A DNA stretch of 64,000 nt from Janthinobacterium sp. GW456P (GTDB lineage Bacteria; Pseudomonadota; Gammaproteobacteria; Burkholderiales; Burkholderiaceae_D), in the NCBI RefSeq assembly GCF_002127655.1, contig NZ_NEHB01000012.1:1-64000 (forward strand), in the 5' to 3' direction. The first letter of the stretch is position 1, and every line of letters starts with the position of its first letter. This document shows positions 3,013-57,042 of this stretch, in pieces. The position numbers were made by a program, and so were the translations under genes. The notes under the pieces are model-generated. The model was given only the letters and a program-made list of their open reading frames with translations. It had not been told where the DNA came from and searched no databases.

Positions 3013-4146
3013 ATGCCTCGATTTTTTCGTACCGCGTTTGCCCTGGCGTCCACCGCCATCCTGCTTTCCGCCTGCGCCAGTTTCCCCCACGACGCGCCGA
3101 TTACCGGCCTGCGCCTGATCGGCGAACAGCGCATCGCGCTTAAATACGCGTTCGAGGGCACCACGGTGGGCGGTTTGTCCGGCATCGACTACGATGCGGC
3201 GAGCAATACTTGGGTGATGGAAAGCGATGACCGCTCGGAAATCAACCCGGCCCGCTTTTACCGCGCCAGCCTCAATTACGACAGCATGGCATTCTCCGCC
3301 GTGACCTTAAACAGCGTGCATTTCTTCACGCAGCCGGACGGCAGCCGCTACCCGAACCTGGCCCATGCAAAACTGGACCGGGGCGACCAGGTGCCCGACA
3401 TCGAAACCATCCGTGTCGATCCGCAGGACGGCAGCCTGTGGTACGGCAGCGAAGGCAACCGCAAGGTGGGCTTGCACCCGTTCGTGCGCCACGCGGACCG
3501 CGATGGCAAGTATCTGGCCACCTTGCCCACGCCCGCGATGTTTAATGTCTCGAAGAACGAGGTCGGCTCGCGCAACAACATGACGTTTGAAGCGCTGTCG
3601 TTTGCCAGCGATGGCAAGAGCTTGTGGCTGGGCATGGAAGCGGCCCTGTACCAGGATGGCCCGCTGGCCACGCCCGACAACGGCTCCGTCGTGCGCATCA
3701 CGCGCCTGGACCGCGCCGGCACCGTGCTGGGCCAGTATGCGTATCCGATTGAGCCCGTGGCCTCGCGGCCCGCGCCGGGGCGCGAGGCGGACAATGGCGT
3801 GTCAGAAATCCTCGCCGTCAACGACCATCAGGTGCTCGTGGTGGAGCGGGCCGGCGTGGCCAACGCGAACGGTATCTACACCAACCACGTACGCATCTAC
3901 GCAATGGAGACGCAGGGCGCCACCGATATCCAGGCCATCCCGGCCCTGGCGGGCGTGACCTATGTGCCGGCGCGCAAGCGATTGCTGCTGGACCTGGAAA
4001 AGATCGGCCTGCCCCGGGTCGACAATATCGAAGGCATCAGCTGGGGGCCGCGCCTGGAAAATGGCCGCCGCAGCCTGGTGGTGATTTCCGACGACAATTT
4101 CAATCCGCAGCAAGTCACGCAAATCCTTGCCTTCGAAGTGCTCTAG
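3013..4146 (+). CDS. Esterase-like phytase-family lipoprotein
   Basis: 377-residue exported protein. The N-terminus is a lipoprotein signal with lipobox LLSACAS, so it should be anchored in an envelope membrane facing the periplasm. The mature part fits the esterase-like phytase family (PF13449), a beta-propeller fold: [20 protein letters not shown] near the start, then [16 protein letters not shown] and [19 protein letters not shown]. The late blocks [20 protein letters not shown] and [10 protein letters not shown] are also typical. The reaction is not established for most members; phytase activity is only implied by the family name. It is a single gene, tail to tail with the REC-GGDEF-EAL gene, whose coding end overlaps it by about 30 bp. 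Confidence 0.85.
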
Positions 4147-9282: not shown

Positions 9283-9304
9283 GGGCGGTCTCACAAGACC
9301 GCCC
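9283..9304. other. Perfect 9-bp-stem hairpin upstream of the hybrid kinase gene
   Basis: GGGCGGTCT-CACA-AGACCGCCC is a perfect inverted repeat with a 4-nt loop. No T-tract follows on either strand, so it is not a textbook terminator. It lies about 140 bp upstream of the kinase start, between that start and the structured element at 9326-9443. Confidence 0.6.
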
Positions 9305-9325: not shown

Positions 9326-9443
9326 ACACCAGGCCCAGGCGTCGCGAGCGGAAGGCAGAGGTAGCTAAGAAGCGCAACCGTACTCTGGTACGGTGAGCAT
9401 CGCAGGCTGCCTATGCCGACGCGCAGCAGCCTGGGCCCGGTGT
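9326..9443 (+). repeat. 88-nt-core structured dispersed element, copy A
   Basis: The core 9341-9428 is exactly 88 nt, like copies B (55326-55443) and C (56707-56808). Outer stem ACACCAGGCCCAGGC (9326-9340) pairs with GCCTGGGCCCGGTGT (9429-9443) with one mismatch. A middle stem pairs GCAGAGGTAGCT with AGGCTGCCTATGC. The terminal stem is ACCGTAC-TCTG-GTACGGT. The conserved unpaired stretches AAGAAGCGCA and GAGCATCGCAGG flank the terminal stem. It ends 8 nt from the ybdD stop codon. It accounts for most of the gene-free stretch between ybdD and the hybrid kinase. Its nature (RNA or DNA element) is unknown. Confidence 0.85.
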
Positions 9444-9451
9444 CACCTCAC

Positions 9452-9655
9452 CTAACAACAACCTCCACGCTTGCCGGCGCCGCCATAGCGGGCTTCCTGG
9501 CGTTCGCGGAAAAACTCTTCATACGTCATCATCGGCTCGCCGGGATGGGTCACTTCCCGGTGCGCCACGTAGGTGTCGTACTCGGGCAAGCCGCACATGA
9601 GCCGCATGCTTTGCCCCAGGTAGCGACCCGCCTTGATGATTTCATCGATCATCAT
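9452..9655 (-). CDS. YbdD/YjiX family small protein
   Basis: 67-residue protein of the family that accompanies CstA/BtsT-type transporters. Visible features are GRYLGQSMRLMCGLPEYDTY, the HPGEPMMTYEEFFRERQ block, and a C-terminus ending KRGGCC, characteristic of the family. The ATG at 9655 overlaps the cstA TGA (ATGA), indicating translational coupling; a second ATG follows at 9652. Longer starts would run inside cstA. The role is inferred to be an accessory to the CstA transporter. The structured element copy A begins 8 nt after the stop. Confidence 0.9.
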   Translation of the reverse strand: MMIDEIIKAGRYLGQSMRLMCGLPEYDTYVAHREVTHPGEPMMTYEEFFRERQEARYGGAGKRGGCC

Positions 9656-17528: not shown

Positions 17529-17618
17529 GGAAGCGTGGCCGAGTGGTTGAAGGCACTAGTCTTGAAAACTAGCGACGGGTTAAACTGTTCGTGAGTTCGA
17601 ATCTCACCGCTTCCGCCA
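17529..17618 (+). tRNA. tRNA-Ser (anticodon TGA)
   Basis: 90-nt class II tRNA with encoded CCA. Acceptor stem GGAAGCG/CGCTTCC, anticodon stem CTAGT/ACTAG with loop CTTGAAA giving anticodon TGA, a long variable arm, T-arm GTGAGTTCGAATCTCAC, discriminator G and CCA. It marks the left border of the accessory stretch running to about 21.2 kb. Confidence 0.97.
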
Positions 17619-55325: not shown

Positions 55326-55443
55326 GCACCTATCAAAACCTACTGCGCGTCGTAATTTGCGGCCTGCGATGCTCACTGTACCTTCGTACAGTTGCGCTTC
55401 TCAGCCACAACTTCCTTCCGCTCGCTACGGTTTTGTTAGGCGC
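55326..55443 (-). repeat. 88-nt-core structured dispersed element, copy B
   Basis: Minus-strand copy with core 55341-55428. Outer stem CCTATCAAAACC (55329-55340) pairs with GGTTTTGTTAGG (55429-55440) with one mismatch. By count about 74 of 88 core bases equal copy C. Terminal stem ACTGTAC-GAAG-GTACAGT and middle stem AAGTTGTGGCT/AGGCCGCAAATT (minus strand). It lies between the DUF1501 stop and the AI-2E transporter start. Confidence 0.85.
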
Positions 55444-56603: not shown

Positions 56604-56706
56604 TGAGGGGTCGGCCAGCGTTGCCGCTGGCCGGTACTGGCGCGCTCCCGGCGTGGCCGGGCGAGGCTTTCAAGCAATGTCGTCGAAAGCCCCGGAATAC
56701 GCCGAG

Positions 56707-56808
56707 AAAAATCGTAGCGAGCGGCAACGAGTTGTGGCTAAGAAGCGCAGCTGTACTTTAGTACAGCGAGCATCGCAGGCCGCAAATCGCGCCGCGCAGT
56801 AGATTTTT
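56707..56808 (+). repeat. 88-nt-core structured dispersed element, copy C
   Basis: Core 56714-56801, exactly 88 nt. Outer stem AAAAATC (56707-56713) pairs with GATTTTT (56802-56808), with a further AATAC (56696-56700)/GTATT (56814-56818) outside. Terminal stem GCTGTAC-TTTA-GTACAGC; middle stem CGAGTTGTGGCT/AGGCCGCAAATCG. It ends 9 nt from the 3' end of the minus-strand gene at 56818. Confidence 0.85.
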
Positions 56809-56817
56809 AAGGAGTAT

Positions 56818-57042
56818 TTAATGCGCTTTAGATAAGATCAACAGCCAACGGCGCATCAGCAGCACTTCAACATAGCCCGGCTCGATGCCCGTACCGCACT
56901 CGATCAAGGGATTGACGGTGTAGTAGCGCTTGCGGAAGTCGCGGCAAACGAGGATTTCGCGCTTGCCCATGCGGACGAGGAAAGAGCTTGGGGCGTATTC
57001 CAGGCCGAACCGTGAGCCAAAACCGCTATTCAATGTTGCCAT
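56818..57042 (-). CDS. Small hypothetical protein
   Basis: 74 residues, no signal or membrane segment. It contains SSFLVRMGKREILVCRDFRK, RYYTVNPLIECGTGIEPG and a C-terminal MRRWLLILSKAH. No family recognised; the codon pattern looks real and a GGAATTG-type site precedes the ATG. Its 3' end meets copy C of the structured element. The AT-rich 57043-57189 behind its start holds the divergent promoters. Confidence 0.55.
   Translation of the reverse strand: MATLNSGFGSRFGLEYAPSSFLVRMGKREILVCRDFRKRYYTVNPLIECGTGIEPGYVEVLLMRRWLLILSKAH

Follow-up and report, generated by a model that had tools for sequence, protein, structure and literature searches.

A dispersed hairpin family, often adjacent to stop codons, with homology to the sX9 hairpin

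Results

Three copies of one hairpin in the window

The 64,000-nt stretch of Janthinobacterium sp. GW456P analysed here (contig NZ_NEHB01000012.1, positions 1 to 64,000; the window) carries three copies of a hairpin element, A, B and C. Copy A is placed in the 3′ UTR of a CstA/PF04328 gene pair and starts 8 nt past the stop codon of the PF04328 (Sel_put) gene, which itself follows cstA. A terminator-like hairpin lies downstream on the same strand, so that copy A sits between a stop codon and a terminator-like site. Copy C follows a 74-aa ORF (57042-56818) that has no Pfam match, and copy B lies 51 nt past the stop of a DUF1501 ORF, with another hairpin before it, and is not tightly stop-adjacent. 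Three covariance models are used throughout: R1, built from 23 of the 25 copies that an exact motif search found in this genome (two insert-bearing copies were excluded); R2, from 31 copies of the window's family; and R3, from 15 copies of a longer form.

9283-9304, minus strand: terminator-like hairpin downstream of copy A, same strand (consensus scan; 0.4 expected by chance in the region)
9327-9443, minus strand (mRNA sense): copy A, full element (R1 121 bits; R2 E = 2.5e-28; R3 E = 2.2e-11)
9341-9428, minus strand: 88-nt core of copy A, the inner part of the element (core alignment)
9452-9454, minus strand: stop codon TAG of the PF04328 (Sel_put) ORF (sequence; Pfam E = 1.6e-25)
17529-17618: tRNA-Ser (TGA) gene, unrelated to the hairpin element
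55326-55442, plus strand (sense): copy B, full element (R1, R2 and R3 matches)
55341-55428, plus strand: 88-nt core of copy B (core alignment)
56700-56815, minus strand (sense): copy C, full element (R1, R2 and R3 matches)
56714-56801, minus strand: 88-nt core of copy C (core alignment)
56818-56820, minus strand: stop codon TAA of the 74-aa ORF, 2 nt before copy C

The first-pass annotation of this DNA had described three ungapped cores of exactly 88 nt each, and our alignment bears this out. Identities are 71 of 88 for A and B, 67 for A and C and 74 for B and C, in agreement with the earlier hand counts for the latter two pairs and far above the maximum of 39 among 2000 random 88-mer pairs drawn from the window. 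Copy A with short flanks, folded on the plus strand that the annotation had used, reaches a z-score of −7.24 against dinucleotide shuffles, and copy B on its mRNA strand reaches −4.86.

Family size and distribution

These three are members of a family that numbers about 100 in the genome. At E ≤ 1, with 150 candidates scored, R1 returned 122 matches. Of these, 96 are full-length and 5 partial places, and the other 21 are echoes of the same places on the reverse strand, so that the genome carries at least 96 full-length copies. Copy number within the genus ranges from 0-2 (G001, G014, which is 82% complete, G022 and G023) through 8-10 (G003 and G009) to top counts of at least 90, where 90 candidates were scored in each genome; the 0-2 copies of some species indicate that the element is dispensable there, which counts against the 3′-UTR reading. 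A match at E ≤ 1e-4 occurs in 140 of the 245 genomes searched in the bacterial family, many of which have a single one, and in 33 of its 44 genera.

A pattern scan of named genomes found at least 117 stretches. The genera among 80 of them (L255-L334) include Janthinobacterium, Massilia, Telluria, Herbaspirillum, Ralstonia, Variovorax, Zoogloea, Uliginosibacterium, Undibacterium, Glaciimonas, Rubrivivax, Lautropia, Hylemonella and, once, Solimonas. Solimonas is a genus outside the window's order; the Solimonas marina record (L267) holds two neighbouring copies, at 3047-3164 and 3174-3291, both matched by R3. A dedicated host gene was considered and rejected, since low-copy genomes carry the element behind different genes in different genera: an ABC-transporter ATPase gene before phoU (taken as pstB), a thiolase gene and a gene of the enoyl-CoA hydratase family.

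Structure and covariation of the hairpin

The element is one long hairpin of 117 nt, or about 138 nt in its gammaproteobacterial form. Read on the mRNA strand, it runs from stem P1 through the arm pair CTRCTGCGC/CGCTCGCKACG, stem P2 and a second arm pair, GCGATGCTC/TGCGCTTCT, to an apical GTAC-loop-GTAC stem. P1 and P2 are variable in sequence, and both conserved arm pairs are near-invariant. In single-sequence folds the conserved strands carry regularly spaced single mismatches, mostly pyrimidine-pyrimidine by reading, and by our reading the two conserved regions are alike once one is turned by 180°. The segments AAGCGCA and GAGCATCGCAGG, originally described as unpaired, are not fully so, and folding gives short pairs with these mismatches between them. 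The outer stems had also been called unrelated between copies. Most of the 23 aligned copies from this genome in fact share the consensus ACRCCTGACAAAACC/GGTTTTGTCAGGYGT; the description is only partly right, copy A being an outlier from this consensus and the stems differing, yet still pairing, between genera.

Two kinds of variant were seen. One subfamily (L009, L022, L152, L154, L423, L435, L442, L455 and L474, in this genome and its relatives) has a GC-rich insert of 13-17 nt (GGCTCGGCGCCCCC-like) in one hairpin arm, and other copies have it, inverted, in the opposite arm or in both arms. In shortened derivatives (L428, L419, L397, L401 and L230) the inner hairpin is lost, while P1 remains, together with some of the first conserved arm pair.

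The first-pass annotation had read the element as a conserved RNA or else as folded single-stranded DNA, with covariation in a larger alignment as the test. In 31 sequences, 22 of them from other genera, both sides had changed in 26 of 38 pairs, and double-changed cells numbered 229, compared with 74.7 ± 6.7 in shuffles. Pairing was 90% and dropped to 34-39% when the partner was slid, which is the covariation that a conserved fold, as in a structured RNA, would leave.

Because relatedness can inflate double-change counts, a single orthologous site was examined too. In the genus that includes Herbaspirillum, the element lies between pstB and phoU. A search of 34 genomes gave a match in 33, and 30 loci were read: the element is kept in 27, while L230 holds a shortened remnant, L233 at most a degenerate copy and L234 none. 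In an alignment of 25 rows, from which L226 (with a rearranged arm), L230 and L232-L234 were excluded, both sides had changed in 15 of 36 pairs, 97.9% of cells were paired, and double-changed cells numbered 111 against 39.7 ± 4.9 in shuffles. One measure of covariation, the number of further pair types, showed no excess at this site (26 against 30.0 shuffled), which counts against the 3′-UTR reading. Nearly identical flanks may enclose different P1 and P2 stems, as in G167 and G066, and the same stem types are found with different flank types. Both patterns suggest that, besides stepwise compensation, entire elements have been exchanged through recombination or re-insertion. Covariation is thus present both between genera and at pstB-phoU, in support of the original proposal.

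In genome G298, 10 of the 11 first copies are paired at one and the same P1 position, and between them they use all four Watson-Crick pairs. The same genome contains tandem arrays of 8, 4, 3 and 3 units (L235, L236, L237 and L239) with a period of 124-165 nt, which trail behind a stop-adjacent first copy; later units of the eight-copy array have no P1 left arm.

The element follows stop codons on one side

Adjacency was measured to the stop codon of the longest open frame (at least 80 codons) reading into the element, at 86 loci (L026-L114 without L079-L081) that are mostly best-scoring places, in part orthologous, and so not independent events. A coding stop codon lies within −12 to +10 nt of the element's 5′ end at 67 of the 86 (34 TAA, 17 TAG and 16 TGA), and at 26 of the 86 the distance is exactly +2. 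The mirror control at the other end of the element gives 11 of 86. By group, adjacency against mirror is 21 of 30 against 1 in this genome, 23 of 26 against 5 among the best copies of the genus, 23 of 27 against 4 in other genera, and 0 against 1 at three low-copy loci of the genus (L076-L078). The 19 loci that are not stop-adjacent count against a 3′-UTR reading, and so does copy B with its 51 nt. In a pattern-based sample (78 loci, from 81 matches less three without a recognisable motif), the stop is at most 28 nt from the left motif in 46, the mirror control applying to the 86-locus sample only.

The one-sided adjacency fixes the mRNA strand as the reverse of that first used for copies A and C, which was antisense to the neighbouring gene's mRNA. 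Between the two forms originally proposed, the one-sided, stop-adjacent position favours RNA over DNA.

A longer form contains Rfam sX9

Model R2 matches 23 of 369 genomes of the class, namely this genome and 22 of other families, the latter mostly over 134-152 nt. In this long form, a stop codon lies within −12 to +10 nt in 15 of 25 readable rows, four further rows being unusable where contigs are cut and the mirror control again belonging to the 86-locus sample alone. In a first scan with both forms mixed, the Rfam family sX9 (RF02228) scored over threshold at 3 of 20 loci and covered the 3′ half. Searched against the 369 genomes, RF02228 found 20 places in 8 genomes, with 5 of these genomes over the curated cut-off. 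At nineteen of the places the match forms the 3′ half of a complete hairpin in which both conserved outer arms are present. At the remaining one (L513) the arms are similar but more altered, and the motif missed it. The sense strand of the element is the sX9 strand. The Rfam model holds only the 3′ half, and its pairing therefore differs from that of the full hairpin.

Conversely, a search of the window with R3 brings up copies A, B and C, each on its mRNA strand (E = 3e-12, 2.2e-11 and 2.3e-9 among the three), and nothing else below E = 0.2. As R2 finds the long form and R3 the window copies, common descent is indicated, and by sequence comparison the 117-nt element is homologous to the sX9 hairpin yet not a threshold-passing member of RF02228, whose threshold was reached by long-form relatives only. 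In the Rfam scan of the window only a tRNA matched, with copies A, B and C below the sX9 threshold; at five loci of this genome, scanned at E ≤ 5, neither sX9 nor any other family matched the element, and no Rfam 15 family matched the 117-nt form in the scans made. Compared through the RF02228 model, Xanthomonas sX9 resembles the element in covering the 3′ half of its long form on the same strand, whereas the window copies are 117 nt long, have a shorter inner part and have no RF02228 match. Several sX9 genes are reported to be upregulated under copper stress in Xanthomonas (PMC10924375), and a review (PMC9029176) counts sX9 as one of the 20 annotated bacterial sRNAs of highest prevalence but leaves the expression column for it blank.

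Further R3 matches lie in an Aeromonas caviae record, on a Yersinia plasmid and in a Yersinia phage. The plasmid and phage relatives are antisense to flanking operon genes, contrary to the rule elsewhere. A BLAST search of plasmids and phages with three copies of the 117-nt type gave no match.

Insertion sites and comparison with known repeats

The element is polymorphic in position. At site A it is present in 12 of 30 loci across relatives, and at site B in 5 of 29, being absent in 24 of 29. The relative G015 (L154) has a separate copy at the same spot as copy B, in opposite orientation and with CTAA on both sides. For 26 element sites of this genome, the matching places in four relatives were inspected, which gave 103 site-genome pairs, scored visually and from short motifs. 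At 14 sites at least one relative has a copy or remnant, inverted at L037 and L046, and at 12 sites none has. The family is thus multi-copy and varies in presence between close relatives, as MITEs do; many comparisons showed diverged 3′ UTRs instead of clean empty sites.

An automatic test for target duplication gave 30 matches in 236 elements against 14.9 expected, at no consistent offset. The L026-L087 copies stand at control level (6 of 66, control 11.6%), and no consistent target duplication was found in the window's genus. Shared flank words of 5 or more are slightly above control in other betaproteobacterial copies (18 of 99, control 11.5%) and clearly above it in long-form copies (12 of 24, control 19.4%). 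Among 38 long-form copies, 5 have identical CTNAG 5-mers on both flanks, where 0.48 would be expected and no more than 3 were seen in any of 300 shuffles; by reading, these words sit inside a short palindrome. Outside the long form they flank 2 of the 65 L026-L087 copies, of which one belongs to another family, and 1 of 99 other betaproteobacterial copies. A uniform target duplication for the family was rejected on these grounds, the offsets being inconsistent and CTNAG standing out only in the long form. Part of the family probably inserts at CTNAG-like words; for the window copies this is no more than a possibility.

Stop-proximal REPs of Escherichia coli are likewise dispersed extragenic hairpins, some of them near stop codons, and REPs are linked to RAYTs. 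PMC3733652 gives the length of REPs as 20-40 bp, and according to work cited in PMC12306157, REPs less than 16 nt from a stop codon lower translation in E. coli. The present element differs from REPs in its length of 117-138 nt, its two conserved arm pairs and the absence of RAYT linkage. Its conserved structure spans 117 nt and is no palindrome of 20-40 nt with a GTAG or CGTC tag, and it has no linked RAYT (Y1_Tnp) gene: in 22 genomes, not one element match was found around 30 Y1_Tnp loci (96 kb). Across the genomes compared, Y1_Tnp does not track copy number either, as G176 has at least 15 copies and no Y1_Tnp match, and G235 has four Y1_Tnp matches and no element copy at E ≤ 1e-4. MITEs of the ERIC and NEMIS type are hairpin repeats of about 100-150 nt in intergenic, transcribed regions. 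Compared by description only, they are of similar length to the element, but its outer stems form no fixed terminal repeat between genera, and no consistent target duplication was found in the window's genus.

Intrinsic terminators carry a U-tract directly after the stem, and by reading the element has none there. A terminator consensus scan (loops of 3-8, at most 20 pairs) did not report it at A, B or C, and the stretches scanned around the window copies held no promoter-like site. The first-pass annotation had left room for a known IS, REP or terminator family that would account for the element; Rfam, the Y1_Tnp linkage and the terminator scan turned up none.

3′ UTRs without the element often hold other palindromic repeats, of a GGGTCTGACCCC type and a GTCGGATTACGC/GCGTAATCCGAC type (some of L189-L200, L385, L402, L416, L432 and others), and such tails look like hot spots for several hairpin repeats.

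Discussion

The element's position, its one-sided orientation and its compensated stems all favour a role for the transcribed hairpin within the 3′ UTR, and the fixed arms suggest a specific partner. We consider it reasonably probable that the family is a dispersed, mobile hairpin that works as an RNA in the 3′ UTR, directly behind the stop codon. A hairpin a few bases past a stop codon would be within reach of the terminating ribosome and could shield the message from 3′ nucleases. In the proposed layout, the mRNA would run from the gene through its stop codon and usually 0-8 nt to a single hairpin. In P1 and P2 pairing would suffice and sequence could drift freely, while the two near-invariant, mismatch-rich regions would be the probable binding sites of a putative factor. 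Acting in cis, the folded and factor-bound hairpin would stand where the terminating ribosome and 3′-to-5′ nucleases meet the mRNA tail and most likely would thereby set release, decay or partial termination for the upstream gene, by analogy with the stop-proximal REPs of E. coli. sX9 would then be a 3′ fragment, or a half-modelled copy, of the full hairpin. A more far-reaching version, which we put forward only tentatively, is that a mobile element plants this site behind new genes and that a putative factor, perhaps ribosome-associated, reads the two arm pairs, giving genome-wide control of 1 to about 100 genes per species in Beta- and Gammaproteobacteria, with sX9 as a half-site and not an independent sRNA.

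The main rival to the 3′-UTR reading is a purely selfish miniature element, which would need its hairpin as folded single-stranded DNA or as transposase-bound ends and whose stop-adjacent copies would survive because insertion at that place is harmless. Such an element would account for a copy number of at least 96 in one genome beside 0-2 elsewhere in the genus, for the polymorphic sites, the CTAA-flanked insertion L154 and the tandem arrays, and for the CTNAG flanks of 5 of 38 and the shared flank words of 12 of 24 long-form copies; moreover, a single-stranded-DNA transposition intermediate needs pairing just as much, which counts against the mRNA reading. However, CTNAG is nearly palindromic and should lead to both orientations, yet adjacency is one-sided (67 against 11 of 86), and retention at pstB-phoU in 27 of 30 loci with compensatory changes suggests selection after insertion. 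In the window's genus no consistent target duplication was found either, and Y1_Tnp, the sole transposase family searched, is not linked. Orientation bias and long retention thus speak against selfish movement as the whole story, and we regard a purely selfish element as rather unlikely. Complementarity of the stems might also be maintained mainly through mutation itself, by template switching or by arm-to-arm correction within a quasi-palindrome, in which case covariation would overstate selection. Whole-stem replacement between species with nearly identical flanks at pstB-phoU fits such a process, as does the 13-17 nt insert that sits in one arm and, in other copies, inverted in the other arm or in both. 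Arm correction should, however, erase the mismatch-rich arms, which remain imperfect and nearly invariant, and the mixed stem and flank types fit recombination or re-insertion equally well. This process, which is compatible with the other readings, is decidedly unlikely as the explanation.

A trans-acting small RNA of the sX9 kind, released from 3′ UTRs and pairing with target mRNAs, is more doubtful again. Rfam does class sX9 as an sRNA, and it is the 3′ half of the long form, but many copies per genome with locus-specific stems would better suit a cis element, the conserved bases are internal to the hairpin, no promoter-like site turned up in the stretches scanned around copies A, B and C, and these three copies fall below the sX9 threshold. 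Membership of a REP/RAYT family moved by a REP-associated tyrosine transposase would fit an extragenic, stop-adjacent hairpin whose commonest form has, by reading, GTAG at both antisense-strand ends; with no element match at 30 Y1_Tnp loci, the mismatch in G176 and G235 and a length of 117-138 instead of 20-40 nt, we consider it highly improbable. Hardly any weight falls, likewise, on an intrinsic terminator: strong hairpins behind stop codons would suit one, yet by reading no U-tract follows P1, the element is missing from the results of the terminator scan, copy A has a separate terminator-like hairpin behind it, and the element also occurs inside the same-strand gene pair pstB-phoU.

REPs are a known case of dispersed stop-proximal hairpins, and one half of the long form is already on record under the name sX9; a literature search with most subscription journals outside its reach found no published description of the full hairpin. 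In the genomes examined, sX9 appears as the 3′ half of a longer, often stop-adjacent hairpin, which gives this very common sRNA family a testable role and a corrected structure. The hairpin family may be a widespread control element in mRNA tails. Should the hairpin affect the termination of translation or the decay of mRNA, a ready-made site of post-transcriptional control would be spreading from gene to gene by way of mobile DNA.

In Yersinia phage vB_YenM_42.18 (L523), the interval between gpL and gpM has an sX9-like hairpin at 1186-1278 on which a 'hypothetical protein' is annotated, perhaps spuriously.
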